A DNA stretch of 64,000 nt from Ischnura elegans (taxonomy: Eukaryota; Arthropoda; Insecta; Odonata; Coenagrionidae). Every line of letters begins with the position of its first letter. Positions within the stretch are counted from its first letter, which is position 1. This document shows, piece after piece, positions 1 through 55,800 of the stretch. Under the pieces are notes generated by a model that saw only the letters and a list, made by a program, of their open reading frames with translations, did no database searches and had not been told where the DNA came from. The DNA lies in contig NC_060251.1 of NCBI RefSeq assembly GCF_921293095.1, forward strand, positions 63,133,585-63,197,584, read 5' to 3'. The translations under genes were made by a program, and so were the position numbers.

Positions 1-329
1 GGCATACTCTAAAATGTGCACGTTTTGCTCGCATTGGGGTCTTTAAATAAATATTTATATATAATTCAATTAGTAAAGCAAAGAACTGATATAAATACAG
101 GCCCAAAGAAAATGCCATATGAAAACATTAGAATGACGATATTCAACGGCGGAATTTACGAACTCTCTCATGTTCTGCCCCCAACCGTTGGCTTTATTTG
201 TTGCGGGCCACCGCCACTAACGACAGACAACATGGATTTACGATCTCTTAATAACTTCTATTGACAGAACACCAATGAGGCAATATTAATATAAAAGGGC
301 CATTCTACACATAATTGAAACAACAGTAT
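1..329. other. Non-coding stretch, no gene seen
   Basis: AT-rich sequence with no recognisable domain, RNA gene or repeat signature. One 82-codon open frame on the plus strand (16-264) has no family resemblance. The stretch lies beyond the most distal candidate poly(A) signal of the minus-strand YTHDF gene, so it is probably intergenic. Confidence 0.4.
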
Positions 330-7900: not shown

Positions 7901-10900
7901 CCAATAATGAATATATCTCAGCGTGGAGTTGATAAGCCACAAAATTGACATGCAACATAAATTAAATCCAATATCTCGTTACCTAGTAATCTAAAGCTTG
8001 GTTTGTATCTCATTTAACAACTGTCATTTACTCATTGCTTATTAAAAACTGGGACAAACAGTTAGCTGGCACCAAGTTAACATATCCACGGGCGATGGTT
8101 CATTTGGAGCGCAGGATTACTACGCAATTCTCAAAGAGGAATTTTACGAATAAGGCACAGGTTAGAGAAAAACTGCTTTCTCTGTAATTTTCAAAATGAA
8201 GCATATTCTTTCATCGTGTAACCATCCATTTTCAGTGAAAATCCCATTGAGTTAAGACCTGTGTCAAAGCAATCTTAGGAATGCTGACCCATGGTGATGA
8301 TATTCTATCTTCTTTTAAATCATCATTTTCCGTGCATAAACAATAACAAAACTGATTATTTTTTAAAATGAAACATACCATCACACAAATTTTTTTGAGT
8401 AAAACACAAATTATCAGACCCATCAGAATTAACACATCCAATTGCACTATCTCTACCCACACCAAACAAACCTTTGGGTTAAAGAGAGTGAATGAGAAGA
8501 CTAATAGAATAGCATTCAAAGCTCCTTCCTCAAAAATCACAAATAGGGTAGTTTTCTTAATCAAAGAAAATGAAAGGCATTGATTGCGATTCGTTACCCA
8601 CCATTAGTGTATTCATAATGAAGACATTATTTGGTTTTTGAAATCCTTGTTTAGACGAATGTTAATGGCCAATTTTAACCTCCTTTGAAAAAGGCCAGAT
8701 TGGCACCCGTGTGGTGCCACTCCACGTGACGTCACAGGGACCTAGATGCTATACGAGTAGTCAGGAGTTTTACATCGTCTGAGATTACCAATGCACACAT
8801 GAGGCACAGAGCTCAGGGAAACATCTCTTAATAATCACCTATTAAAATGGCCTATGGTCGGAAAGTTTCCTTCGTTTGATAGGGTATTAGTAATCCTAAT
8901 CTAAGCCAAGCACTACCTGCTAGCACTCTGCATCGTATTGGCACTCATAGCCTCGCACCAAGGTGGCCTCACACAGTGGCAGCCAGAACCAGAATGATGT
9001 CACACGGACTTTTCCCAGCATTCATACTAAGCCGTCGCGTCTCGCCAGGTTGAAAATTTTCACTTTTCATCTAATCGCGAAAAGTAGATAGCGTGATTTA
9101 AAAATCTAAAAGCGTGAAATACATACTCGAGGAGTTATATCTTTCGATTTAGGCAATTAAAATAAATAAGAAACCAACCTATTCTCCACTCCAATTAACA
9201 GGAACTCATTAAGGGATGCCCAACAACGTTCATAATGACTACTCATTTAAGTATACCAGAACTAACCACAGTGAAAACTTTACATATGTCACCCGCAATG
9301 CACAAATAGTGCGAAATTTCCTCAGAGAAAAAAATCATTCACCTTGATAGGGATTCAATTCTCCCAATTTTCAGTCGAGTGCTTTAGCCAGCAAAGCTAC
9401 CAATGCATCTCTCCACACTGTGGAAATAGATTATCATTAATTTACGCAGAGGGGAAAGATGTCTTGGTAGCTTAACTGGCTAAAGCACTTGACTGGAAAT
9501 TGGGAGATCCAGGTACAAATCCCATTCGAGGCAAATAATATTTCTATGGAATTTTGCACTACTCTTTTACACTTCTTTCTACAGTAGTCAACTGATTACA
9601 GCTAGTTAAGTCCATCTTCTGTAAAAACTATCTTACTCAGATTAAAACCACTTTCATTTTCAAATGAGACAATATTTTAAAATGGAAATAGAAAAAATTA
9701 ATATTACTTAATAAATGATTATTAAGATCATATAACTGTAAATAGATATTTTAAATTGTTGGATGCGAATGTGAGAATCGGATCAGAACCATGATATATT
9801 TTGCTAGTGAATGATTTAGCTTCACTGATTCCATTTTTCAGTGTTAAGAAAAGATGAAAAGCAAATATTTATTACTCACATGAGCAGTAGCATTCCCAAG
9901 GGAAATGAGAAAACCAATGCAAGAGTAAGGTGAAAATTAAGTGCCTAATAGCCTAGAGGTTTACTTCCAGCATGAAATGTGGATATTTTTATATGTAAGA
10001 GCTCTTACTAATAAACCTTAGGAACTACAAAAAAATTTTGCTGCTCAGAAGCTTCTGCTGTATTCCTAACATACGAAAAAGCAATCTAGCAAATTATTGA
10101 CAGATATAAAACAATTTTGCTGAAGTTGCCTCAGATAGAATGCTTATTCTCGGCAAATAACTATAATTTTGTCAAATTAAATAAAATAATTTTAATATTG
10201 CATTTATAGGAATAACGCGGTCGTAAAATCAATAACTATCATGACATGATACAATGAGAAGACATTACTGTACATGTTCCATTAATATTCAACAAAAAAC
10301 ATAACTTTCTAATTACATTATAAAATACCATTGGTGAACATGAAAATAAATATGCATTCAGGTAACATGAACATTTAAGAGAATATAAATGTACAGCGGA
10401 ATCTTAATTTATGGTTTTAAGGGAACAAAATTTTAAACAATAAATGTTAAACAAAACCAAGGGAATCCTTGTCTTTTTTTAGGTTTTAGGGTCTGTGTTG
10501 ATTAGAACAGTTTCCAATTCATAAAATAATATAACTTTTAGTATCTAAAAGGCATCATGTGACACAATAAAATTTTTTATTACTTTATTGTGCTCTTCTC
10601 AAACGTCAGAAAACAGATAAAAAATGGAAGATAAAATTAATTGTGAAAAGCCATTTTTGTGGATGATATTTTCAAGACAATTAAAACATTAATGACATTA
10701 AAAACATTCCCACTTGGAATGTTATAGTGCATAGTTGTCAATATCAATAATTCTATTTTTTTAATTTCTCAAAGTAATATCTGTTTCATTCTAATAACAG
10801 AGGGAGGTTTTCTAGAATTTTACCGGCTTGAGGTTTTTTTGTCTCCCCAGCAATTGCTGAACAAATGAGCCATTAAAAAGCCTCCTGTAAGCAGATTTTG

Positions 10901-13900
10901 GCATCCAAGATCATCACATTAAGAGAATCTCATAGAATCTTATATCTAGTATTCATGTAAATTGATGACGATTCAACAAGATATAAACTCCACCATTTCC
11001 ACGGGCTAGCCCCAATTCTGCAGGACAATGGGCCTGGGAGAAAGTGCTCACACAGCACACTGATCAAAACTAACTTCCTTTATTCCACTGTGGATTTTAA
11101 TGAAATATGGTTGGACCTTGAATAATTACTAGATTAACTCTGATAGTGAAAAGGTTTTACCTTCGAGAGAACTGGATTAAATTTGAAAATTTGTAAGTGC
11201 CTTCAGAGTTTGGCAATTACCTCAGTGTTTTGTTGTCGAAGTCAAACACAAAGTAATTCCTGCCATATTTTTGTAATTTTCCACACCCATCTATTTAACT
11301 GTGAGTATGTAATGATTTTTCCTTTAATGAGCGATTACCATATTTTCTGGTAAATAACATGCACCTACTAGATAACACGCATTTCAAAAACTTCTTTGTG
11401 ATATATGTATTGATAATGTGCATTTCAAATTTGTACTATTTTTCATATTATTATTATAATTACAGTAGTGCTTTAAATATCGTTATGTTGCTGTTTAAGC
11501 CGCAGCGAAATCATCATAGCTACCTACCTTTCTATAGACAAATGAACTAGAAAATAAACAATTTTGAAAGTAGTATCGAAGGTATTTCAATAGTACCTAA
11601 TTATATTTATTATTGTATGGCCATGGAAGAAAGGAAAGCAACAACACGCAAATCGTACACGGCTCATTTAAGGTGGAAGTTATTCAGTTTGCAAAAGTTA
11701 ATGGAAATCGTGTAGCAGGCAGAAAATTCAATGTAAATGAAGCTAGTGTGAGAGAGTGGCGAAAGAATGAGAAGGTTTTTAAACCTTAACCTGCTCCCAT
11801 CGTCTATTGACGATTTGAACTATGCTTCTACTCTCCTGCGTCCATAGGTGCTTAGAAGTTCTTTCTTTGACAAGTAGATGTCATGCGGACATCTTTTACT
11901 CCTCTTTTTATTTTCACTGCCCTTCAGTAGCCGCCAGGAACACTCAGTAGCCTATTTCAGCTTATTTGCACAGTCAAAGGGTTAAGATACTGCATAATTG
12001 AAAACGAGCCATACGCTACAGAAAGTGTTTCTGGCCAACACTCGAAAAAGAACTTTAGGACTGGATTATTCTTGAACGATCAAGAGGAATAAGACTCTCA
12101 ATAACTAGAATTTTACTTCAAGCAAAGCAAATTGCACAAGAGAAAAACATCATTGACTTCAAAGCAAATCCCTCTTGGAGATTCCAGTTCATGATGAGGA
12201 ATAATTTAAGTGTTCGTGCCTCGACAAGCATTGTTCAGAAAGAAGGGGCAGCCTTGATTTGGGACGAGGGTTTTTCCTGTGAGGATAGGTATCTGACCAG
12301 CCAGGGGAGGGCGGGGTTAAAGTGGGTGAGGAGACGAGAGCTAAAGAAGGTGGCGGTGTTGTTCTTTAGCTCTCGTCTCCTCATCCACTTTAACCCCACC
12401 CTCCCCTGGCTGGTCAGATACCTATCCTCACAGGAAAAACCCTCGTCCCAAATCAAGGCTGCCCCTTCTCCCTTCTTCCCCCCCCTCTCCCTCTTTCAGT
12501 CCGTGCTTAACCCTCACCCCCGCCTTCCCACTAGTCCTTTTCCTTTCCGACAGATGTCCTCACAGTCACTGGTGCACTTTGTGTATAAATGTATGATGCA
12601 TGCAGGTTCAGTCACCTGACGATGTAACTAAGTTACGAAACCCGGGTCGTGCCCTTAATTAAACAACAGTGAACCTTACAAAGTTTTATTTCCTTAATTC
12701 CAATAATGTCAGATGGTTCCAAGATATCTCCTATGGTGATATTTAAAGAGGAAAACCATTCCATAGGGGCATTTTTCAAAAGACCTTATTGTTACCGCAG
12801 ATGGATAAATGAAGAATTGATGAAGATCTGGTTGGATAATGTTTGGAAAAAAAGTAAACATGCTTTCTTCAGCCCCAAATCTGTTTTAATTACGGATGCA
12901 TGTCGAGCCCATTTAGGGCCCAAAGTAAAGAAATTGGTCAACAAATATTCCAAGGTAGCAATTATACCTGGTGGTCTGACGAAGAAACTTCAACCCCTTG
13001 ATTTCACGGTGAATAAATCCTTGACATCATAACTTCGAGCTAAGTGGGAGGAATGGATGATTGCAGGTGTCTATGAACATACAAACTCTGGGAAGATCCA
13101 GATCGTCCATCTTATGAGGAAATATGCAAATGGATTTTGGAAAGCTGGAATTCTGTGACAGCAAATTGCGTCCAAAGAGGTTTTCATAAATCATTTGGGG
13201 ATTTGCAGGTTACAGAAGCAACAGACTCGGCAAACGATGAAGCTACTGAGGAAAGCAATGTTGCTGATCTTCCAGTGGAAATACTTTGAACTATGGATTC
13301 GTTCCAGTGCGACTCGGGAGATGAGTTAGATAGAAGATTTATGTTTGCAAATTAGATAGAAGATTTATGTTTGCAAGTTATAATGTAATTCTTGTATTAA
13401 TTACTTGTAAAATTGCCCTAGTAAGTGAGTATACACTCTGTATTGTCTGTGGTATATAACTAGAATTGTTAAGTCATTTGCTTCAGAGTTCAATATTCAA
13501 TTAAACTAAATTTTCCGTTGTATATCATGCACTATTATTTTTATAATTTTTCTATATTTTGTATAGATAACACGTGGGTTATCTACCAGAAAATACAGTA
13601 ATTTGAAGTCATGGACGGTGACTCAGTCATCAAAACTTTAATTGTCATTCTCTAGTGACAACAATAGCAGCAGATAAATATCCTTTGATCAAAACCAACT
13701 CCAATATATATCCTCGTGACTTTAAATGCAATCTGCAGTGCCTACTTTACGATGTTGCATGATATTGTTCTGTTGAAAAGAATACTCTCGCTCACCATCA
13801 AAGACATGCCAGAAGAAACACTTCTTCGGTTCTTTCATGGGTCCCCCGTGAAAACTGATCATGGAGGGGATTAAAGGAAGGACTTTTGAGTGAACTGCCC

Positions 13901-25900: not shown

Positions 25901-28900
25901 AAATAACAAAGTGACCCATTTTTGTCATTCCTCGAAGGAAATTTCATTAATTTCTGTAGAAAAATCGCTTATAAATCCCAAGTCAGCAATCAACGTGAAA
26001 ATTTGCAGTTCTAGCGATGGATGTGGTGGCGTATGTGGTTGCACTCATTCCTGTACGATACAACTTGATATACAGCAATCTCTGAAGCGCCAACGCAAAG
26101 GTTCGACTTACGTAAATTTTGACTTACGCATAGTCTGCCGGAACGCATCTCTTACGTAACTCGGGGGATGCCTGTAATCACTTATTAAAACTGGCTAAGG
26201 TCCGAAAGTTTTCCTCGTTTGATAAGGTATAAATAATCCTTATTTAAGCCAAGCACTACCAGCCAGCAGGGTACTCAGCTACCCGCTAGCACCCTGCGTC
26301 GTATCAGCGCTAAGCCTTGCTTCAAGGTCACCTCACAGGGCGGCAGCGGGAGCCAGACGGAGAGATTTCCCGGCAATCATACTTACGCGTCGCGTTTTCG
26401 CACGCTTGAAATTTTTCACTTTTCATTTAATCGCGAAAAATAGATATCTTAATTTAAAAATCTAAAAGTGTGAAATACGTACTCCAGGAGTAATAATCTT
26501 TCGAGTTAGGCAATAAAAAAATAATAGGAACCACCCTATTGGTTTAATAGTTTTCGCATCCTTGTAAATGAGTAAAGGGAGAGTATATGCAGATGCATGG
26601 TTACAAGTCCTAAATCTGAGAGTAGTTTGAGCTGTACTTAGCATAGAGCATAGCACTATGTAATGTAAAAAATGCCCCTCTCTTCCAGGCAGTATCCCAT
26701 ACTCTCTGAACCAAGGTCACGGCCCCTCCCCCAAATTTGATGCAGAGTCTGCCCCCACCCAGTATAGTCTTAGATTTCACTACTACACAATCAATAGCAA
26801 TTCTTTCAAAGGATATTAACAATTCGTTGCAGTCGTGGTTACACTAGTTCATGCTTGCCCACAGACTTCTAATAACAATTTAACTAACTATTGATTGCAC
26901 ACACCTTAAAAATTAAATATTCTAAGCATTTTTCCATAAGCATAACTGAATTAGCAGCAGATACAGAATACTTTAAGAGAGGACAAAAGCAAGTGGGGGA
27001 TGGACCAACAAACTGGGAATCACACAAAATCTGATGTCATCAGAGTGGGAGAATGCAGGAGACAACAAAAAATACAACAAAACGAAAACTAAGTTTTCTT
27101 GAAAACACTCACTAACACATTAATAAAATGTATCACCTATTACTATTTTCTGAGGGTCATTTCGTATATCCCATTTTTTCATTACAATATTTGTGAATTT
27201 TCAGTGCAAAATTTTATCGGGTATAAATTCTTTTCCTCAGGGGACACAGGCATTTTCAAGAGGGACCCATGGGGAGGGGGAAAGTCAGAATTTCAATCAG
27301 AAAAAATAGGACTGACAGTAGGAGAGGGGGAAAGTCCCCTATACTATCTCAGTGAATCAACTCCTACTCATCACTATGACATCACCAATAAAGTAACTAC
27401 ATAATTATGCATGGCAGCCAAAGTTATTTTATTGACTGACAGCAAATTTCAAGTAGCAACAACAAATGTGGTGAAGTGAGGAAAGACCACAGGGGTAGTG
27501 TACCCACAGCTACACATTTAGTATTAAACGTCAAATTTGTTTTTCATTTTCATGTTTTTAGAGCTTAAATACTACAAATTTTTAACATAGAATTGATCTT
27601 ATATTAAATGAATCCCAAGGATCCACCCAATTCCTTACACTACCAAACTGAAAACGGAAAGATTAGCACACTTGTGTTGAATTGAGAATTATTCTAATGA
27701 GCTACACAAAAGGAGAGCAAGGAAAATCAATTACTAATAGTAACAAGATCAAAAGAAAACAACAAACAGAGGAAAAGACGTGAGAACACATAAGTACACA
27801 CATTAATGTATATGGGGGTCATTAACCCAGCACCTTTCCTACCTTGGGCATGCCGCCACCCACGTGGTTGGCTTGCTGCATGGCCTTCCTCTGATCCTCC
27901 TCCTCCTGCCGCTTCTCGTAGTGAACAAAGTCATCAAAGATGGAGGTAGAGTGGCGATACTGGTGAATAATTCGCAGGACTTGTTTCCCTTTTTCAGGAG
28001 GCACTTCCTGGGTGTCTCGGCTGTTGGTCACTGGTTTGTTCTCGTTGTTCTCGAGGCGGACATGCCGCAGCTGGGCATTGGGCACATCTTTCACGTAAAG
28101 CCACCTAACGCGGAACTGACCCTTCCACTTATCCTGAGACCACACTGAGGCCGAAGCACGATAGTCCACGGGAGAAGCCATCTCGGCCACTCCGCAGAAG
28201 TGCCCGGAGCCATTGACCGAAAATAGTAGGTACACGGGACCCTTCCCTTCCCTCTCCCTGAAAGCCACGTCCAGCCGCTTGTTACCGTGTTCCGTACTGC
28301 ACCAAATCTCGTACTTTATAGATCGATGGATGTCGTCCTCGGAGTAAGACTTGATGACGAAGAATCGGGCCCCTTTGGCCGACAGGTCAAAGTCCGTCGG
28401 GTTGTAGTTGTTCTTGACGCGCAACTCATCCAGCACTGGGTGTGAAGGCAGGGGCGCGGGGGCCGAAGACGGCACAACGGGCCCGGGGGCCGCGGTCGCC
28501 CCCGGCGCGGGCACCACTGCGCCGGCCGCCGCGATGCCCGGATTGTGGTGGTGCATCTGCTGAGCGTGGTGCTGGGCGTGGGAAGGCTGGTGGTGCTGCG
28601 GCGGCTGCTGGGGGTAGTGATGGTGCGGGCCGTGATGGGCCATGCCGTGCGGCCCCTGCGCCTGCTGCCCCGGATGGCCGGGGGCTGGAGGGGCCATCTG
28701 TGGGGGCATGTTCTGCTGCCCCTGGCCGGGGTGGTGGTGAGGGGCTCCAGGGTACGAAGGCGCGGGCCCCGGTGCCGAGGGCGGGGCCGGTCCACCGGCC
28801 CTGTTGCTGCCACCTCCTCTCATAGGTCCACCCCAAGGGGGCCTAGGGCCACCGCCGCCGCCTCCCTGGCCCGACATCACTCCGCCACCGACCGAGGGCC

Positions 28901-31900
28901 CGGGGGCAGACACCGCCTGCGGAGGCTGCACTGGAGGAGCCACCGGCTTGGGTCCCGCGCCGTTCTTGCTCTCCCACGTCCCAATGTCCATGCCATGCTT
29001 GCCGGGGAGCATCGGGGGCGGCGGCATACCCGCTTTCTTCTTCACCACCGTCGTCGGCTGCTGCGGCTTGGCGGGCTGGCTCGCGATGCTCGCCCACGTC
29101 ATCTTCTTTTGGGTGGGCTGCTGTCCACCAGCGCCTTGCTGACCGCCCTGTCCGGGCATGCCCTGGGCCACCATGCCCCCCTGACCCATCCCCACAACGT
29201 CCCCCACCTTGGAACCGTCCTTGCCATCGTTCACCTTGCCCAAGTCTGCCTTGCCGGCGTCACCCCCGAGCCCCAGGGCCTGCATGCCGTGCTCCATCGC
29301 CTTGACACCAGCGGCCACCGCGGCCCGCTCGTCTGGGACCGCGGCCGAGCCGTAGACGCCTGCAGCCGCCACTGCCGCGGCGCCGTCCCGGTAGTAGTCC
29401 TCATAATGTGGTTTGCGTGACATTGAGCTCCCCGCCGCGCCCCATGTGGAGTAGTCGCCCCCGTTGCCTCCAGCTCCGCCACCCCCGCCCCCACCGCCCC
29501 CGTGGAAGTAGTTGTATGCCGGCTGCGCCCCGAATGTGCCGAAAGCCCCGCCCCCTCCCCCGAACATGCCGTCCATTCCGTAAGAATCATGGCTGATCTG
29601 CCCTCCGTAGCCGCCAAGAAATGTCATGGGGTCACCACCATTGGACCAAGTGCCATCACCCACCCCGAATGCTTGATAGGGAAACGAAGTGCCGTAGTAG
29701 TTTGAAATGTATGGGTCCGAGGCCATGGAAGTTGATATGGGCGTGCTGTAGCCCTGAAGACAAAAGAGAAGACGACGGACAGGGAGGTTACAATGGTTGC
29801 GTTGCACTTATCAAACAGGAGTACTTTCAGTTTCAACTGCACAGCATGCCTTAGCTCTAAATATAAATAAGAATGTTGGCCGTAAATATCTCCAACGAAT
29901 TCAATACTTGGCACCTACCTTTCGTTCGATTGGATGAAGGCTCAAAATCGGGAATGAAAATAGTGAAAAATTATACTTAATTGTTGGAAAGTTTTTAGAT
30001 TTGTAGAACTATTACTAATAACATAGAATAACTTCTTCCTAAATATCATGGAATCAAAACAGGAGTTTAACAATAAAGGTAATGAACAACCTTACGATTA
30101 ATAGTTCACGGAGATCCAAAACAGCCAATGACTGACGAAAATAAGTGCAACGCGACATACGGCGGCTATTAAACATGAAAATAATAAATGCGTGATAAAA
30201 CTAACGATAAATATTTTACAAATGTGGCCCTAAATGTACCATAAGGTAAAAAGTGAACACTTTACGTGGCGATTTATTAACATAAAAAAGTGTTTGGGTT
30301 TTGTGGACAAATTATTTACACTGAACAGTTACGAGAATTAATGATGAAAATGACTGCGAGGAATTTAAGACTCCCAATCGATAGAGGCATTCTCTCACCA
30401 ATTCTTAAGAATAGTTTAATGAACGAAAGAGTTCTGACTTAATTCGAATTTCTTTTGGCTGATACGACAAGTCGCATACTTTTTCAAACTCAACACAGAT
30501 TAGAGGTTTCGAAAATTGAGGTTACCTATTATCGTCCGGAGCCCTATGACAGGCATTAGGAAATATCCCTAAGTTTTTGGCTTAAGCAACGATTTTTACA
30601 CCCATTAGTCATACTAATGGTTAAAATGGGAAGGAAAAATTCCAGCTTCCATTGAATTAAGTGAAAGAAAATTCGTAGTGGCAGTGCTATCCATACTATC
30701 CTTCTGAAATACACGAACCAGCCTAATTCACTTCACAGGCTTAAGGTGACCTAACGCGAAAGGTTTACATCTGAGATATAAAGTACAAAGATTTACTGCA
30801 GTCGAGAATAGGTCTCACAATATGGTTTATAAGGACTGATTCAACGGCACATATTGGAGATAAACAAATCAAAACAAGACACAAGAGAGCTAAACTTGGG
30901 CGAAAAATGAGATTCCACAGTTATGTCACGTGATTTAAATATTACTCAGCACCAAAATGAAATTTCATCGAAAATGGGTGGCTCCTAAAATCATTCTAAC
31001 TTTATCGAGATGGCAATAGAAAGGGATTAGTTAACTCTGACCAAGGCCAAATTGTTATCTAGAACGATTCAGTCACGAAAGACAGGAAACCAAAGACAGT
31101 AAACAAAACTATTAACTAATAAATACACTGTAAACGTTCATTAAATTTTCTGGCCAGAAAGGTTATGAGCACTTTCGCTGCATAAATCAGGCCGGAAATC
31201 GAGCACAAATGAGGCAAAAGATGAATCAGACACATCAAAGATCTTAATCAGATTTAAACATTACCTGGTGATGTTGCGTTCTCCATGAATCAAAGTCTTC
31301 ATGTTCATTCACGTGGTCCTTAGGGCCATTTGAAACTGAAATACGTAAATGCCACAGGTAAGATTCAGATGTGAGAAACAGAACCGGTTGCCTAACACAG
31401 CCACTTATAAAGATTTTGCTAATTACAACGACAACACACTCAAGCGTTGCGAGCAGCTCATTAATATCAGAGTTCAAGAATAAGATCTAGATATATTATT
31501 GATAACAGTACATTCAAAACTTACGCCATGCTTTATTAATTGCACTAAGGCCTTTACGCACGACTTTCTAATGATAATCTTACCAAATAAACAAAAGTAA
31601 ACAATACCGACGGTGAAACAATTTCAATCGATTAATCACAATATCAATGCAATGAGAGGCTACGACAACTTTAAAACTCATTAAAAGATATATAAAAACA
31701 CATTTTCGATAACTTTCTCCATCAGCCATTTAACTTAAACACAACGCGAACTTTCTGGAGGAAAAATTATGTTATCGCAATAACTTTTCGATGACTAATA
31801 ATACATATGACAGCGTGGACAAAGAATAACAACGCCATACCTTGATTCCCTTGTCCTTTCATCCGCTAAATTGATTGAAGAACAATCACATGAAAAGGAT

Positions 31901-34181: not shown

Positions 34182-35631
34182 ATTCACTATTTTTGTCTAC
34201 CACGTATTCATCCATCACAGAATGTACAAGAAAATTCTGTAGTGCTGCGATCAATTCCCATTTGCTGATGTAACAATGCATTCCATTCAATCGACGTTGG
34301 TTGGTGGCAATGGAGTCTTTGGAGACAAACTTTTTGTCTAAATCATATCTTGAGAAAATGGTAGTTTGCTGATTAAATGTGGTGACTGATAATACTAACT
34401 TTACTTGCTGATGGCTGTATATTTTGAAAGAATGATTTAAAAATTGTGGATATTAGGTATCGGGAGCCAATTTTATATGGTACAAGTAATTCTAATAATG
34501 TGAACATGGTATGTTGATTTTAATTGATATACCCACTGATTTCTCTTCATTCTTTAATTCTCTTTTTTTAATTCCAGCCATCCTCCTTAACTAGTTCTTT
34601 ATACCTATTTTCCTTTCTCAGCATCTCCTCTATTTCACTGCATCATATAATTGACATCACATTACAGAGAGCTTAACTGTGGTACACCATTCACTCTCAA
34701 TATAAGTTCCTTTTCTAAGTGTCACCCTGCATTTCTTCATTATTCCTACTTTGTTGAGTGCTTCATAATTTCTCTCTTTGCCTCCGTCTCATTCTTCATG
34801 TGGTGAGCATGGGTCCTTTTCCCCTTTCCTGCCTTGAGATTCACGTTTCTGTGCCAGACAATGTTTTCAGTCCCTTACCCTTTTTTTTTCATTTTAACAT
34901 GTTTTTATAATCAACTATCAGCCAAGTCTCCATCTTTATATGCATTCTATCCGTTTGTCCAGGTCCTCATTCCCGACATACTGATCATCACATTCCTCAC
35001 CAATTATGCTGAACAAATGGTTTCTTCTTATGGCATCCATCAACTTTCTGTCCTCCTTTATACTTGAATGCTCAAAACACTGCGCCATATAATAGTCTGG
35101 GGCAGGGGTGCACATAATTGAAAACTAGCCGGATACATGTTTTGGTTGAGAGAGAAAACTTCGGATTGACAAGTTGCTTCTTAAGATGAAAAAGATGTGG
35201 TGTGGTCACAATTTATAGCACATACAATAGGGGATAGTTATAACGACTCAAAGGAGGCAGCTAGGATGAGGATAATAGAAATTTGATTACCATAGTCTGA
35301 TTAAGTTTAATGAATCATGGGCAAAGCCAATCATGCGGTGTTCCGTGATATCTCGTCTTATTATTGAGATTTGTATGCATTTGAATAAAAATATCAAGGA
35401 TTAAATTACCTGATTAAAGTGAGTAAATGAGGTTTTTACAAATCTTATAAACCTGGAAATTTTTGAGGCACATGAAGTGTCAGGGAAATTCAGCATGAAA
35501 TTTGAAGAGCAAAATTTTGTACCTGTCCCTTCTTCACAAGAATTCATGCCCAAAGTGTTGTCTTAGTTTTTGGGATTGATTACTTGTGGTGCTTCCACAT
35601 CTGAGAAGTTAAGATTTTTTGTGAGCCTGGT

Positions 35632-35788
35632 CATGGGCGGATCCAGGATTTCTTTCTGGGAGGGGCACAAGGATACCTCGTTATACAAAACGAACTAAAT
35701 GAGAATGGGACCGTATTAAAAATCTTGCATATTTTCAAGGGTCTGGGGGGGGCACGTGCCCCCCCCCCCCCCCCTGGATCCGCCTATG
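35632..35788. mobile_element. hAT-type MITE with 8-bp target duplication
   Basis: 157 bp. Left end CATGGGCGGATCCAGG; right end CCTGGATCCGCCTATG, its inverted copy with one change. The flanks carry the direct repeat AGCCTGGT at 35624-35631 and 35789-35796. An 8-bp duplication and CA...TG termini fit hAT elements. The interior includes a long poly-C run beside GGGGGGG, so it is foldback-like. No coding capacity. Confidence 0.85.
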
Positions 35789-36353
35789 AGCCTGGTCACA
35801 ATGCCTTAAAAGCCCATATCATCTAAATGTAGGAGTGTTTTTGTCAAACGACTGCAGAGAAATGTGAGCCATGCAGGGTGCTTTGGCTAGTGGCTGTTCG
35901 TTTTGATTCATGTCCTGATGTCGGGTGTAAATAGTGGATGAGCATGATGGATTTTATGTCTAGCCAATAATTAGCTCTGTTCGAAATTTTTATATCTCAA
36001 AAAATTTGACTAGTAATTCAGGCTTACATCGCATGCTTATTAGACCTTAGACACAATATTGCTGAGAGGTATTTGCTTACCACCACGGACATTGATGAAT
36101 CTCCCCCCCCCCCCCCCAAAACAACCTTAACCCCTTCCACTTCAAATTATTTTCTGAATATCATGCTCCTATCCTCTCTTTATTTTTTCTGTGGTTCTTT
36201 TCAAATGGAACAGTAGGTATTGAAATGATAATTTTTAGTTTGTAAAAGACGTGGAATAGTGAAATAAAAAGTGGTTATTATTTCATATTGTTCACTTTAC
36301 CCCCTTCCCTTTAAAACATCGAGAAAATAGCTACCTCAACTCATATAAAATCA

Positions 36354-36486
36354 AATTAAATTAAAAAAGAAGAACTTTGTGCTTTCACATTAATATTTAT
36401 ACCTGATGATGACGTCTAACGTTGAAACCATGGTCGTGAATAAATATTAATGTGAAAGCACAAAGTTCTTCTTTTTTAATTTAATT
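36354..36486. repeat. 47-bp perfect inverted repeat around a ribozyme-like core
   Basis: The left arm at 36354-36400 and the right arm at 36440-36486 are perfect complements. The 39-nt loop between holds the hammerhead-like core. The arms would extend stem I of that motif. Long inverted repeats next to hammerhead motifs occur in the terminal repeats of Penelope-like retroelements. No coding part of such an element is present here. Confidence 0.85.
36401..36439 (+). ncRNA. Hammerhead-ribozyme-like motif 2
   Basis: The loop of the inverted repeat reads AC (stem I), CTGATGA, stem II (GACGT/ACGTT with CTA loop), GAAAC, a self-complementary ACCATGGT as tiny stem III, GTC and GTG. The block order matches motif 1 at 12613 although stem sequences differ, including compensatory stem II changes (GTAAC/GTTAC against GACGT/ACGTT). 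As in motif 1, an extra U follows the CTGATGA core. Activity is inferred only. Confidence 0.5.
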
Positions 36487-38829
36487 ATGAATCGCTTTCA
36501 CCAAGTTACGCCTCAAACAATCAATCATATAAAATCATTTTATTCCTTCCAATGCATCATATTTCTTGAGTTATGAGTTCTTTATGGATGTTATGAAATT
36601 CGTAAACTTTCAAAGTATTTTTATTGTTCCCCTAAATAGTACTAAAATTATGGAAATATGATTAGTAACCTCATCCAAATACCTACCTAACCTATACAGT
36701 ACTACTAGGTAAGAACTACTATCAAATAACAATTATATAGTTATTACGAGGGTAACCAATAGATACTTAGAGATTGAGCTATGGACTTTAATACTTAGGA
36801 TGATGATGAGCTAGGAATTTCTTATTTCTCAGACAAGTTTATTCATCGTTAGTCAACAATCCTAAGATTGGTTTGACGCACAAGTTTTTTTCCAGCCAAA
36901 TTAAATTACTGCTATTTCAAATGCAATAATTCACTTTTCAAGGTCAATGGCTGGCATTCCAAAACCCCCAACTAATTCTATCGAGGTGACTCGTTTGTTA
37001 TATTCTATTTACTTTGTATACATATTATGTTTGCAGGTGAGCTTTCGTGAGAGCCTAGAGTAATCAGCGGAACTGATAGGAATTTGTTTTATCCCCGAAC
37101 AATTAACAGCATTAATAAAAGCTAATTTGAACAAGATTGAATAAATACTCGTTCAAACCAAATTCAAGCAGCCAATTCACTCACAACTAGCAGCTAAATA
37201 TTTTTCCTTTTTTTTATTCCCATGCAGGTAATCAGCAAGAATCGCTAGATCTAAACATGTAGAATGCACTCGTAATCCTCACTCAGCAAAATAACGAAAA
37301 CTTATTGTTTTTTCTATTTAACTGTATCGACCAGAAACCAACTGTGGGCATATGTCAGTGGGGCTCTTGGAGTAATGAATGGGCAAGATTACTTTTTCTC
37401 TAAGATGAAGGAAGGGATCCTGTCTCTAAAAATGAGCCTTTATAATATACGGAACAATTAGAAGTCTGCTTCAAGAAAGCTTTGAAGCAGAGACATGAGT
37501 ACAAAAAAACATTGTTCACAGGAGAGGGAAAATTTAGTGTATTAAAAAACTGCTTGTGTAGAAAAATTATGCCATCTTTAACAATTCTATTAAAGCAAAA
37601 GTGTAATTGTCCTATTATTGGGGGCCATTGCAAGATGTGCCTTCAGGAATGGTGAAAAAATTGTCTCACTGATTTATTTCGCTGTCCTATTGAGTTGAGC
37701 TCCGTCATCACAGAACTGAAATGTTTTAAGGTCTATTCCCTCACGGACAAGTTATTTAGGATAAAATCTCTCTTGCGCAAAAACTTACATATTTTCAATC
37801 AATTTTGTGCTCTGCCTCAGAGAGAGCATGGTTAGCAGTGGTCTACATATCTCTCTGCCTTCCTAGTTAAAGAGAATATCTGTGCTCTATGAGATGGTGA
37901 ACTACTGACCGCCTGTAGTTCTAAATCTTTGAAGCAAAACAAAAACACCACTGCCATTGAAGCCAAAGAGGGAAGGAGTCCACTACCCCCTCAAAAGTAA
38001 GGCTAATAAAATGGACATTGACCTCTGCCCACCAATTTCAAAATAATGGTATGGTGTCAGGAATACAAACGTATCATTTTGACTTCCAAACTTTTTGCCA
38101 TTCCGGGAGATTCATCCTGCTATCACCACAAAAGCGCACACTACATCAGTACCCTAAAACCTCCAAAAAAAAGCCACCCTCTTCAAAAATCTGAGATCTT
38201 AAGTCAAAATATCCAATAAAATCTTAGATTAAGCATCAAGACTTTTTAATCATATTGCAATGACGTATGCAAACTCATAAGGATCTTTTCTCAATTCATT
38301 GAGCTGCACGCATAAAAAAAGCTTAATGAGTTCTACAAGGTTAATGTACGAAGGCAACAAAAACACAAAAAAGGTAACCAGAGACACAAACCTGTAGAGG
38401 GAATCACTTAATAAATAACACTGGGGAACAACCAATTAGTAGTATTACATCTGACACTTATTTTTGGCCTCTGGATATAAAAATGTCAGTTTTTATCAAC
38501 CACATCAACTTTTTAAGCTACAGGATATCCTCTTTTTGTATCATATGTCACAAAAAAAATTTGCAAATGAATGAATTTAAAGGGAAATATTACCTTATAT
38601 ACTACCTACACAGAATAACTACCAATGGTTAAAAGATGCGTGTGAATTGAATATCAGCATGCAACCCGCTCCACACTGAAGCTTCCCACAAAGTAAATTT
38701 TGGATTACAAGCCTACGTCTAACTCTAGTATCTCCATAACATCAGTATCTGCATCTACAACTATGCACCTGTCGCTGGCCTCTTAGGGTGTCAATTTCCT
38801 GGTAATAGTCGCATAAGGTTAATGTCAGC

Positions 38830-40760: not shown

Positions 40761-43700
40761 TTACTTTGTTTTGGCTTTTTTACTTGGTTCTCCTCCAATA
40801 ATTTTCCTTCTCTGAGAAAACATATGTAGGTACATCTGAGGAAACACTGAAACAATAGAAAGAAAAATGTCATTATACGAACTAATATCAAGTATTACTG
40901 AAAATTAATCACTATTTACATTTAACAAAATACATTTTGATAAAACTAGAGAAAAATAGGCTGCGAAAACTCAGTATTGTTTCTTCCTCACTCTGATGAA
41001 CCCATAAACAGAGCCTTGATGACGGTTCAGAAACAGACTAAAAATACACACTATCTTTCAAATGAATTCAACCAGTAATATTACACATCAAACTGTATAA
41101 AACCAACTGCTCCCATGCTTCTATACACCACCTCTTCCAGTTATATTCTAAAGAAAGGCATTCATTGAGAGTAACTGTTAAGAACGCATTTTCAAATTAT
41201 AATTTAAAACAACAGCCAATTCATCAAATTAGAATGGATCACAAGAGTGTTAAATAACCTAAAACACCAGGAGCATACCTTTCATTTGGATTAAAACATA
41301 GCCTTGTACTAATTTTTAAATATTTAAAGACATTCATTGTAAGTTATTCTCATTAATTATACATCTACACATAACATAAGAACAAAGACCACATTAGAAA
41401 AAACTTACATGGGAGGTAGAGGAACATTGTAAACAGAAGGAAATACCGATAACTGAAAGTTACATTCAGGTAATTTGGCATTTCCACAGTCCACAACTTG
41501 CTATGCGCAACACTCTCTTGCGCATAGTATAATGATATCAGTTCACCAGTCACTCCTATGGGATATAGGACAATAAAGAATGTGTACCTGCAAAGGAATT
41601 AATTCAAAGAATGAAAAAAGTTATGATAAGGTTGATTTAATACTCAAAATATAAATTATCAAGAGGAAGAAAGTTGAAAGTACACTGCCTTTCACAGAAA
41701 AATTGCTTCTATAAAATCAGAAGCTATTTTAATAATAATCTCAACTTTTCATTTAGCGTCACCAAGCTATCCCAGTACATTTTATCCCAATAAAAAAATG
41801 CACAAATTTCATATAAGTGCATCAATATTTCCATGCCTTGATGAGATCTTCCCTTTTAGAGAATTACTTAAATTGTCCATTGACATACATAACATTGAAC
41901 AAAATACAATGGTTGCTTCATTATCAAACTAAAACTATATAATCTTGTGAGGCTTAATTGTAATTTCCTCCAGTGGCAGAAATGAATTAGAGGTAGTAAT
42001 GGATGGTTTTTACAGGTTCACTCTAACATCCATGAATTAATTATCAAGAATTATAAAAGGCTTGTCTGAAAAAACAATGTCACTGAAATTATGAAACCAT
42101 GAGAAACGTTCTAATTCAAGGTTTTCATGAAGCTTTGCATCAGAAACACTATCATAAAGGTTAATTTCCAGCAATCAGAGTTATAAGCTATGCCTTGGTT
42201 TTGGAGCTGGTGGCAATTTAACTTCCACTCTCAGCTACTGCCAGGTGCAACCTACGTTCTATTATTAATTTTTTATCAACATTTTGTTATTCTATATTAT
42301 CTACCAGTAAAACTACTCCTACAGAAATTAATTGATAGTTATGAGAAGTGTAACAACATAAAAAAGGGAAAAAAATGGCACAAGGAGCTTAAGAGTGGGC
42401 TGACAGGCATTAATAGCAAACATTCCTTTGAACAACGTAAACAGTTCTTGGATTTCCATACGGGTTAGATGCTTCATCTCCATCCTAGCCAATGTTGCGA
42501 GGAATGACTAATTCATCGTCATCAGGGCCGTTATTGAATTGAGGATATTGAGTGGATAGCCGCGTCAAACCAATGTTAAGGCCTGTTTACACAATACCTT
42601 TACACGTACAAGTTAATGCCTGTTAGCACGAATGATTTTTGTGGACTGGAACGGAACATGTGCAAAAGCATGAACCAAATTCGATCAGGTTCTATTTTCT
42701 GTACATGCATTCGCACAAGTTGGTTGGTTATACGGTACATTTTCGTTTCTATTCACGTGTTCATACATTTAGACATTAACTCGTACAGGTTTATGTACCG
42801 TGTAAACAGGACTTTAGGATTATTGACCAGGGATAATGATGAGAAAAAATGTGCCACTTTCATCCATTCTTCGATAGTTAAGATTGCAAAAAAAAACAAA
42901 GTTTCCACCCATTTTTTATCAGGAGTAGAAGGCATCATTGGATTTCCAGTTCACCAACTCAATTGTGGAAAGCTGCACTTTGACAGAAGGACTCACAGTA
43001 GAGTAAAAAGAACTAAACTAGGTAATCATGCACGGAGGAGAGGATTAGCTAAGAAGCAGTAACCCAATAGGTTGGAGCTTATGAAATCATCAAATTATCT
43101 CTGAAAGATAAGACTATCAATTTTTCGCAGTGATTCATAGCTTGAGATGAAGGCAATGGTTCGAGAAACTGAAAAATATGAGCCTCTTTATTTCTCAAAC
43201 TCTATCAAAAGGAAGGAAAAACGGCATTGTTGAACAAGCCCCTTCTTAAATACTATGATGATAGGGAGAGGATCAGTTAAAATAAAGGAGGGAAAGGTTG
43301 AAATCTGCATTCTAATCAAATCAAGTTGGTACAATCAAAAAATGTACGATTGTTGATCGTGGCATGTATTAATTATTTCATATAAATGCAGTAGATCTGG
43401 AACTGTTGAGTACGTATCATGAAAACTGATACCTTATAAAATAAAAAGCTAGTTCTCAAGCCACCTACACAAAAAAAAAGTTGGTCAAGTATGATGTAAT
43501 TATGTACATTAAAAAATGGAATTTTAAAGGAGGATGGGCTTTGAGGAATTGGCAAGATGGGTAAGAATGAATGGCAGCAAGGCATTGGCATTCCTCTGTA
43601 AATTCTAGGTTACACAGAAATATGTATTGCATGAAAGAAGGTTGGGAGGGGTTTGTGGCAAAACAGCATGCAGGGAGGAGTATTTAATACACAAAAGCAA

Positions 43701-49655: not shown

Positions 49656-49728
49656 GCCTCGGTAGCTTAACTGGCTAAAGCACTCGACCGGAAATCGGGG
49701 GATCCGGGTTCGAATCCCGGTCAAGGCG
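49656..49728 (+). mobile_element. Intact tRNA-like head of SINE S1
   Basis: This 73-nt sequence folds as a cloverleaf: acceptor GCCTCGG with TCAAGGC, D stem GCTT/AAGC, anticodon stem CTCGA/TCGGG, T arm CCGGG-TTCGAAT-CCCGG and a final G. The A and B boxes (TAGCTTAACTGG and GGTTCGAATCC) are intact, so Pol III promotion is plausible. The loop CCGGAAA would give anticodon GGA but has C at position 33 and lacks the long variable arm of serine tRNA. The sequence is shared with the heads at 9340 and 9461 and is followed by the same GAATGATTTTTTCTCTG tail. I call it a young SINE head, not a working tRNA gene. Confidence 0.75.
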
Positions 49729-52800: not shown

Positions 52801-55800
52801 TAAGTGAAGATTCACCATGGAAGTCGATGGTTTGGTGGTGTAATTTGTAGCATACCTGACCGCCAATTGTGAGATCCAGGTTCAAAGCCTGGCTAAGCCT
52901 AAAGTTTTTTTCATGGCGACTTTCATCCTTGGTGTATATAACATTGCACTAGTGTACGTGAATGGTTCAAAAGTTAATTGCACATGCAGTACTTTCAATA
53001 AAAACCATCGATGACTTTCAATTTCATCATTATCCCTATTTGAAATAATCTGCCAATTCAATTGAAAATTTCAGCTGAATGTGCCAATTGAAATTTGTTA
53101 CTCTTCAATTGAATGCAATTGAATATTTTCAATAAGGTATGCAGAAAGCAGTGGCACTGACTCCATGGGGCCCGGGTCCCCTCAAAAATTCATTATGGGT
53201 GTAAGGAAAAAATGTGTCAGGCTTGCCGATTTTCCCCGGAGTATCCAGATATCAAGGTTCAAGTTATCTGGGTTCTAATATTGATCATTTAACTCTCCTA
53301 GAATGCTTAAAAAACTTAAAACTTACTTCTTATAAAATTTCCTGGGGCAAGATTCCTGGCTTTAGCCCTCCTAATATGTTTTGTAAGTCGGCATCCCTGG
53401 CAAAGAGAACCCATAGTGGCAATTGGCAACAAATTATCAGCGTAGGCAACCCACATAACATCTAAGCCATCCCCAAAACAAATTTTCAGTTATGTATCAG
53501 GCCTAAATTTGAGCTCATGGTCATCAAGTTATTGAGTAACACTTCTTTGAAAAATGTGATGATTTCCCATTCATTTTCTCCTTCCTTAATAATAGCCATT
53601 CATGATTTCAGGACTCTCATTGAGGGCATACTCAGTGGCACACTTCAAGAAGTGGTCAAAGATGGATCATATTTTTTCCTACGTCGCGCAGTGAGTTACT
53701 TGCAAAATTTAACAGAGGACGACATCAATTTGGTACAGACAGAAAAGGCAAATCAAGAAATGGTAATTCACTCCATATCAGAAAAATTACTGTGTATAAC
53801 ATGCACTGTTGTTCTTTTTATAAATGATGCATGATTCATTGATGAATAATAAATTTAGGGGACAGTTGAGAGGTGATCATAGCCCATGCCCTATTAAAAC
53901 AAAATGCATGATTTTTCATTGTAGCATGCCCACAAAAAGTAGGTAAATTGCAGGTCTATCTTTGTAAACCTCATAAAATAGAGAGGACTATTTATTTAAA
54001 TGAGTGGAAATATAAAGCAACCTTTGTTAAAAAAGGAGATAATACATAGATATTTTATTGTAAATATGCCATCTGTGTTGTTCAGAACATATTCTCTTAC
54101 CTCTAGGATGCTAAATGTATTTTATTAACTCTCTTAGTGCTATCCTTCTTCCTGGGGTAGGTACTAGCGAGATATGCAGAGGGTATTTTAATAAAATTTA
54201 GCAACCACGAAAAAAAAAACAATACAAAGCTATTTTATTACACGTCCATAAGCGGTATTTTTTAAATTGATGAGGTTAATCTGGTTAATATTGACGGAAT
54301 AATTTTATGTTTACTGAAATGTTAATCTAAATGTAATAAATTATGGGAAATTAAATAATGGACCACCTATGAGCCGATATATTGGCCTGCCCCACTACAA
54401 GGGTAAGGGAAAATTCTAAAACTCTAGAGAATGAACTCCCTGCCCAAAATAATAAATTACTGTACCTATCATGGACCTTACTGAGCTTTCAACCACTACA
54501 TGCTATTATATTTATTTATTTCCCACTTCCCCGTAAACAGCACATTGCGGCCTTTATAATGCGCTACCTTGGTTTGACAAGGTTCTAACTGACCTTCAGC
54601 TGGTTTTGAGAAAAACCTTGTCAAAGTTTTAAACTGCTCTATTTCTATTATTAATAGGAATTTATTTTTGATTTTTGGCACATACACTAGTGATCCACTA
54701 GATACACTAGTAATTATTACTTTAAGAAAATATGTTATTTATTTTACTTTTTTACATGTTTATATGAGTAATAAAATAAGTAAAATGCAGTTAGAACCTT
54801 GTCACACCAAATATTAGTTTTTTCTCCTTGCAGTTGGAACTTTGTCACTGTTCTAAATCTGTTATTATTTTACATAGAGGAATAAAATATGGTGAACCGG
54901 TGAACATATAGAGAAACATAAACTTAGTTACCTTGAGTGAAAACACCAAATTTTTGCAAATATGTCGGTTAGAACCTTGTCAAACCAAGGTAGCGAATGG
55001 GTTATCAACATTAACAAAGCACAACACAAACATCCATACCCTGATTAGGGATCACCTACCCAGGCAGGATTCGAACCCACGACCTACGGTTAGGCAGGCG
55101 AGGACTTTACCCCTCTGCCACCGCCTTACCTTTCTCTAGACCTACATTCTTTTGCCACAGTCATGTTAGTAATTTCATTTGCTAAATTAGGAATATTTCT
55201 TTATTTCCAGCTCAAGAAAATACAGAGACTTATTGCTGAAGAGAAAGCTAACTCACAATTGACTCTTCAAGAGAAATCTGATCTAATAAGCAAAATGAAG
55301 GTAAGATCCTAAATTTTTAGAATCTATTGTGAGGCCATGGAAAATTAGATTGGAGTAGAAGTTATAAAAAAATTACACATCATAAAGTGCGAGGCTACTG
55401 ATCAAAGAGTTCCAGGTTCAAATCCCACGCATGGGCATATCCAGCGAGGGGCAGGGGTGGGGGCAGCCTTCCCCCCCCTAGAAGCAAAAATTGCAATAGT
55501 CTTTAAGCAAAATCAGTACCTACTGAATAGGGTAGTTTCCTTTTATTTTTTTATCGCCTAAACCGAAAGATTATTACTCCTGGAGTACGTATTTCACGCT
55601 TTTAGATTTTTAAATGACGATATCTATTTTTTGCGATTAAATGAAAAGTGAAAATTGTCAAGAACGTGAAAACGCGATGGCTAAGTATGAATGCCGGGAA
55701 AACTCCGTGTGATGTAGTTCTGGTTCCCGCTGCCGCAAGTGAGGTGACCTTGGGGCAAGGCTTTGAGCGCTGATACGACACAGGATGCTAGCAGGTAGCT

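Follow-up and report, generated by a model that had tools for sequence, protein, structure and literature searches.

A stretch of 64,000 nt from the Ischnura elegans genome (hereafter the window) contains a hammerhead-like motif in the loop of a long, perfect hairpin. This arrangement raises the question of what kind of element carries the motif, and whether the long stem is part of the ribozyme. The features of the locus are collected in Table 1, together with a second hammerhead core of the window. Positions in copies are given relative to the predicted cut, with c0 as the first base 3' of the cut (window 36436) and c-1 as the C of GTC.

Table 1. Features of the insertion, its hammerhead ribozyme (HHR) and the second HHR core
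Feature	Position in window	Strand	Basis or remark
Target-site duplication, left copy, TCATATAAAATCA	36341-36353	.	13-bp direct repeat
Left arm: inverted pseudo-LTR 5'UTR piece of a Penelope-like element (PLE), c4..c50, tail absent	36354-36400	-	Perfect reverse complement of 36440-36486
Right arm: HHR, 5'UTR and 38 nt of ORF start	36401-36524	+	124-bp unit, many copies
Hammerhead core	36403-36435	+	626 exact genomic copies (one open position); stem II covariation with 12616 core
CTGATGA	36403-36409	+	HHR core
Extra T (U)	36410	+	After CTGATGA
Stem-loop II	36411-36423 (stem 36411-36415/36419-36423)	+	HHR core
GAA	36424-36426	+	HHR core
Stem III palindrome ACCATGGT	36427-36434	+	HHR core
C before predicted cut	36435	+	Predicted cut between 36435 and 36436
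5'UTR, HHR cut to ATG	36436-36486	+	L079 alignment: ORF begins 51 nt past cut
Tail: first 38 nt of PLE ORF, ATGAATCGC...	36487-36524	+	Matches ORF start of relatives
Target-site duplication, right copy	36525-36537	.	13-bp direct repeat
Second PLE-type HHR core, other family	12616-12648	+	Extra U; stem II GUAAC/GUUAC; stem III ACCCGGGU

The 47-bp inverted repeat described in an earlier, sequence-only reading of this DNA is indeed perfect, and the hairpin fold has z = -17.6, with none of 200 shuffles equally good. The interval proposed there for the feature, 36354-36486, is real but too short: direct repeats of 13 bp lie at both flanks of 36354-36524, so this longer unit is an insertion. In the right arm an AC is followed by the HHR core, then by 51 nt, and then by the 38 nt that begin with ATGAATCGC; the outer end of the left arm is the base preceding the ATG of the ORF carried by related copies. 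The window copy itself is without a coding part and has a single HHR.

The arms had been expected to prolong stem I, but they are not a simple continuation of it. Stem I of the window copy consists of 2 bp (AC/GT), after which a 2-nt bulge (GA, 36438-36439) precedes the 47-bp arm. Longer copies (L009 and L017) present a TATA box and then ...GTAGAGTTCAC ahead of the HHR, from which the native stem I can be read as TTCAC/GTGAA with an additional G-U. Only the AC of the native 5' strand is kept in the window copy, the rest being replaced by the left arm. The long hairpin stem is a by-product of the insertion and lies outside the ribozyme.

Other features of the window include a MITE-like unit of 183 bp at 35619-35801, with 29-nt inverted ends (83%) that contain the 12-bp direct repeat TGAGCCTGGTCA, and a YTH-domain gene (PF04146, E 1e-52) on the minus strand at 27822-29807, about 6.5 kb from the insertion, which we take to resemble a YTHDF m6A reader. 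Rfam tRNA models matched at 49656-49728, 52829-52900 and 9461-9533; of these, ARAGORN calls the first (tRNA-Ser GGA) and neither of the others, which may therefore represent pseudogenes or SINE heads.

The hammerhead consensus comprises CUGANGA, GAA and NUH at the cut site. All three are present in the window core in the order that had been noticed from the letters alone, plus one U after CUGANGA. A generic HHR pattern matched the window four times, against 0.24 matches expected; those at 36403 and 12616 were judged convincing HHR-like cores, and those at 40836 and 52126 were judged to be chance. A covariance-model search, which had been proposed as a check on the motif, gave no support: in the window no hammerhead family matched at the Rfam gathering thresholds, and at E <= 10 none was among the 37 matches in loci L001, L009, L011, L017 and L018, which were mostly miRNA and snoRNA models far under their gathering scores.

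Folded without constraints, the core reaches its energy minimum in a structure other than the HHR, and this minimum is little better than that of shuffles. As a monomer, the RNA favours a non-HHR fold by 6.7 kcal/mol for the native sequence and by 10.1 kcal/mol for the window copy. Stem III is a perfect palindrome, ACCAUGGU, whose 8-bp duplex amounts to -11.2 kcal/mol, and the available parts of two papers report PLE and other short-stem-III hammerheads to be active as dimers via palindromic stem III loops (PMC6466107, PMC7761336). By analogy, folding of the present HHR may need a dimer formed through its palindromic stem III.

The extra U had been regarded as a departure that could weaken activity. 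It occurs, however, in 186 of 188 aligned segments of the family (picked by similarity to the core, the two arms of one copy being counted separately) and is common to the 12616 core, which shows that it is not a lesion of the window copy. As the segments were chosen by core similarity, the conservation of the core over its flanks was not taken to indicate selection. De la Pena and Flores reportedly described, in 2001, a viroid hammerhead with an additional nucleotide in its catalytic core, which is said to lie at the same place. The extra-U design CTGANGAT-N12..14-GAAACCNNGGTC, with CCNNGG in stem III, has 6046 exact matches in the genome and 1 in the control, a count that covers the extra-U form only, two families having been examined. 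PLE-like hammerheads may be very abundant in this genome.

The core at 12616 differs from that at 36403 in stem II, which reads GUAAC-UAA-GUUAC in the former and GACGU-CUA-ACGUU in the latter. In four of the five pairs both bases are changed, and all 20 cells are paired, whereas slid controls reach at most 45%; 30 of 500 shuffles equal the observed value, the comparison being of two sequences. The counted pairs of stems I and III are invariant between the two cores. Compensatory changes of the kind asked for in the earlier reading are suggested in stem II, as far as two sequences can display them. The 12616 core has 1548 genome matches at up to 2 mismatches, some of them in divergent pairs, and its family is presumably also a PLE. 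An inverted repeat of 108 nt (98%; 12241-12348/12362-12469) adjoins this core in the region 12241-12690, and a TATA-like TATAAATG is located about 32 nt upstream of it.

Copies of the insertion were searched for in the whole genome (1.72 Gb, 110 contigs). Of the 1485 candidates that a 251-bp query gave at first look, 40 were scored and yielded at least 113 matches. Exact matches to the 33-nt core, one position being left open, number 626 (317 + 309), with none in the reversed control; among the 100 matches listed, many core sites form divergent pairs whose members are separated by tens to hundreds of bases. Tandem monomers are absent among the fetched copies, which are dispersed and either one-armed or head to head. 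In a subfamily (L053, L136 and L173; also L042, L046, L047 and L051), the cut site is separated from a GTGAAT-like sequence by about 8 additional bases, GTAAATTT or ATAAATTT, which weaken or shift stem I.

An RT ORF of the Penelope type is attached to some of the copies. In locus L037 a frame of 524 aa encodes an RT domain and, at the C-terminal side, the stretch GVY...YVGQTG; the same pseudo-LTR comes after this frame, and on the left side of the locus the ORF end and the pseudo-LTR appear as an inverted copy. The L037 protein, used as query, gave at least 83 matches from 82 scored candidates. Loci L079-L083 present open frames of 855-856 aa. In L079, the ORF counted from its ATG has 843 aa and begins at 547, 51 nt past the HHR cut. 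The RVT_1 domain (PF00078) exceeds its cut-off in both L037 and L079. The GVY...YVGQTG stretch, spotted by eye, is presumably a GIY-YIG-like motif; the Pfam GIY-YIG model had no match in L037 at E <= 0.001 or in the 843-aa ORF of L079 at E <= 1, and a PDB search returned no GIY-YIG chain among its four matches. Two direct HHR copies flank the ORF in four of ten ORF-bearing loci (L079, L080, L081 and L083); the others comprise one inverted pair (L077), four loci with one HHR, and L089, with none in the stretch examined.

The RT ORF of these relatives begins with the sequence that forms the tail of the window copy. Since the relatives have both this ORF and HHRs in direct pseudo-LTRs, the unit 36354-36524 is, to judge by its sequence, part of a Penelope-like element, and the proposal of a minimal hammerhead from a PLE terminal repeat, left as a non-coding remnant, is borne out, as is the expectation that a genome search would reveal further copies joined to the RT ORF. 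Instead of a simple solo terminal repeat, one of the options raised earlier, the unit consists of two 5'-truncated pseudo-LTR arms, head to head. The copy itself is ordinary and the element is of a known kind.

How such copies arose can be read from their ends. A 32-nt pattern across the tail start has 462 exact copies in the genome; 93 of the first 100 matches listed formed the sample, which was reduced to 90 after the removal of 3 duplicates. Inner ends of right arms were placed with affine gaps and four references, and left arms, located by a simpler method, were found in 58 of 91 copies. The outer end of the left arm falls at c48-51 in 51 of the 58. Direct repeats of at least 8 bp flank 50 of 59 two-armed copies (the 58 plus the window copy), 42 of them being of 11-14 bp, against a mean of 2.4 with re-paired flanks; among one-armed copies with ends above -60, the figure is 12 of 24 (null 1.15). 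The window copy and the 58 sampled two-armed copies thus present the same combination of head-to-head inverted pseudo-LTR, tail and target duplication.

We therefore hold it to be highly probable that 36354-36524 is a strongly 5'-truncated, two-armed insertion of the Penelope/Poseidon type, in which two cDNAs were joined head to head. The transcript would start at or beside the 5' strand of HHR stem I and would comprise, in this order, the HHR, the 5'UTR, the ORF (RT and GIY-YIG-like motif) and a second pseudo-LTR. Both strands of the target DNA would be cut, and each would prime reverse transcription at one of two adjacent internal sites: 38 nt within the ORF for the right arm, which would therefore bear the tail, and just 5' of the ATG for the left arm, which would lack it. 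The two cDNAs would then be joined head to head, and repair would leave the 13-bp target duplication. In the window copy, the right cDNA would have reached c-35, near the presumed transcript start, and retained the HHR core, while the left cDNA would have halted 4 nt before the HHR cut site, which would explain the position of the HHR in the loop of a perfect hairpin. According to the available parts of the sources, both target strands are cut and extended in vitro by a purified PLE from an anole, whose tail is delimited by two neighbouring RT start sites (PMC11167929), and rotifer Penelope insertions have an inverted pseudo-LTR and a 31-bp tail (PMC3846280). Double-strand priming, taken over from another species, would by analogy apply here.

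Inner ends of the right arms (n = 90) are distributed upstream of the cut as 19 below -39, 14 at -39..-33, 11 at -32..-18 and 4 at -17..-1, and downstream as 18 at 0..10, 9 at 11..21 and 15 at 22..60. For the left arms (n = 58) the corresponding counts are 12, 14, 7 and 1 upstream, and 14 at 0..10, 7 at 11..21 and 3 at 22..44 downstream. The sampled ends peak at -37 (6) and -35 (5).

This distribution bears on a different history, according to which the original head-to-head PLE insertion was longer and was reduced to a short hairpin by later loss of the unstable middle of its palindrome. Long palindromes are unstable, and longer two-armed copies with the same ends do exist (L009, L017 and L037). 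Short two-armed copies are common, however, and many of their arms (14 of 90 right and 14 of 58 left) end near c-39..-33, a clustering that random deletion of the centre does not predict; we consider this history unlikely.

Considerably less probable is a retrozyme-like unit, as also suggested from the sequence alone, which would be non-autonomous and spread as a small circular RNA. The unit is small and non-coding, with a type I-like HHR and many copies, and metazoan retrozymes coexist with PLEs, as stated in the available part of PMC7229834. The window copy has a single HHR, nevertheless, and the fetched copies lack the tandem, HHR-bearing monomers (about 150-450 bp) by which metazoan retrozymes are recognized; the copies have variable 5' ends and fixed 3' ends, as expected of truncated PLE reverse transcripts, and the ORF-bearing copies have the same ends, so this reading was rejected. 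That the palindrome and its HHR-like loop both arose by chance, or that the unit is a MITE with terminal inverted repeats, which its inverted ends and direct repeat resemble at first sight, has a negligible probability given the hairpin fold score, the 626 exact cores against none in the control and ends that are asymmetric by 38 nt, these being the RT ORF start, and is already refuted by the genomic copies joined to that ORF.

For the preferred reading, two truncated cDNAs joined head to head, the ends also bear on the RNA templates. Genome counts of 20-mers along the element are 2401 (c16..35), 2083 (c0..19), 2198 (c-20..-1), 1874 (c-33..-14) and 939 (c-53..-34), obtained with up to 2 mismatches and after subtraction of the reversed control; they pool both arms, the pseudo-LTRs of ORF-bearing copies and perhaps related families, and decay rates may differ between the 20-mers. 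The count halves from the 20-mer that starts at the first core base of the HHR to the preceding one, and the TATA box begins at c-68. Taken together, the TATA box, the drop in counts and the pile-up of ends suggest a transcript whose 5' end is the HHR and which serves as template mainly in its uncleaved form. For the anole PLE, the accessible text of PMC11167929 reports that HHR mutants still insert in vitro and that the cut site coincides with neither the beginning nor the end of any RNA-seq read; our end data agree with this in pointing to uncleaved RNA as the main template.

Sampled ends are scarce at -17..-1, the 3' half of the HHR, and are more frequent just past the cut. Under a uniform null over -32..21, 4 of 42 right-arm ends fall in -17..-1 (P = 0.0008), with 3 of 29 in two-armed copies (P = 0.008) and 1 of 13 in one-armed copies (P = 0.05). 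The genome-wide count presents no drop from c0..19 to c-20..-1. Many of the junctions at 0..10 lie at palindromic AATATT/ATTAAT or TTCAC/GTGAA micro-repeats, and micro-homology can explain part of that cluster. Against the pattern run the left ends of L002-L008, chosen by similarity to the window copy, four of seven of which (L002, L004, L007 and L008) are in -17..-1; L008 also belongs to the larger sample. With a simple extension method, a sharp edge was seen at the cut site, 25 of 91 right-arm ends falling at c0..10 and none at -11..-1. It was not fully upheld; affine gaps and four references gave 18 at 0..10 versus 4 at -17..-1. Five of the 25 edge copies (L053, L136, L173, L119 and L157) are affected by insertions beside the cut site, either the subfamily GTC-GTAAATTT-GTGAAT or single diverged copies.

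The weaker end cluster past the cut hints at some cleavage in vivo and makes a class of cleaved templates possible. Two template populations, one uncleaved, from HHR stem I (c-39..-33, main), and one self-cleaved, from the GUG (c0..+10, minor), with a scarcity of ends between the two classes, can be put forward tentatively, as a possibility that we think rather less probable than its absence. If it holds, the ends of PLE copies would preserve a trace of ribozyme activity in the animal, the window copy would combine one cDNA of each class, and the extra-U hammerhead with a palindromic stem III would itself be an active PLE design. The many short two-armed copies make RNA 5' ends readable from DNA and supply a specific sign, open to testing, that a minor class of cleaved RNA may exist. 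In a literature search of titles and abstracts, with most subscription papers outside its scope, the use of PLE copy ends for testing HHR cleavage was not found.

Among known systems, the minimal type I hammerheads of PLEs, said to have been described by Cervera and de la Pena in 2014 and by Lunse et al. in 2017, share with the present HHR the conserved core, the very short stem III and a palindromic stem III loop suited to dimers; compared with them through the available parts of reviews, the two families studied here carry an extra U between CUGANGA and stem II. Metazoan non-LTR retrozymes, as described in the available part of PMC7229834, also have a type I HHR within a small non-coding repeat, but in our case tandem monomers are absent and the ends are common with an ORF-bearing PLE.

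The element PAc of Anolis carolinensis, as far as the accessible text describes it (PMC11167929), shares the RT ORF, the HHR-bearing pseudo-LTRs, the tail bounded by two RT start sites and the AT-rich targets; its GIY-YIG-type motif may have a counterpart in the stretch recognized here by eye. In PAc, reverse transcription starts at an AC-rich stem-loop 111-118 bp into the ORF and the cut site is 26 bp within the ORF, whereas here the start sites would lie immediately 5' of the ATG and at nucleotide 38 of the ORF, and the HHR is entirely upstream of it; unlike in PAc, the HHR has a palindromic stem III of 8 nt and the extra U in its core. The Penelope insertions of Adineta vaga, to the extent of the text available (PMC3846280), share the head-to-head inverted pseudo-LTR, the tail at one end and the target duplications, with a tail of 31 bp and duplications of 8-10 bp instead of the 38 nt and mostly 11-14 bp observed here, and, in contrast to the rotifer, short ORF-less copies are very numerous in I. 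elegans.
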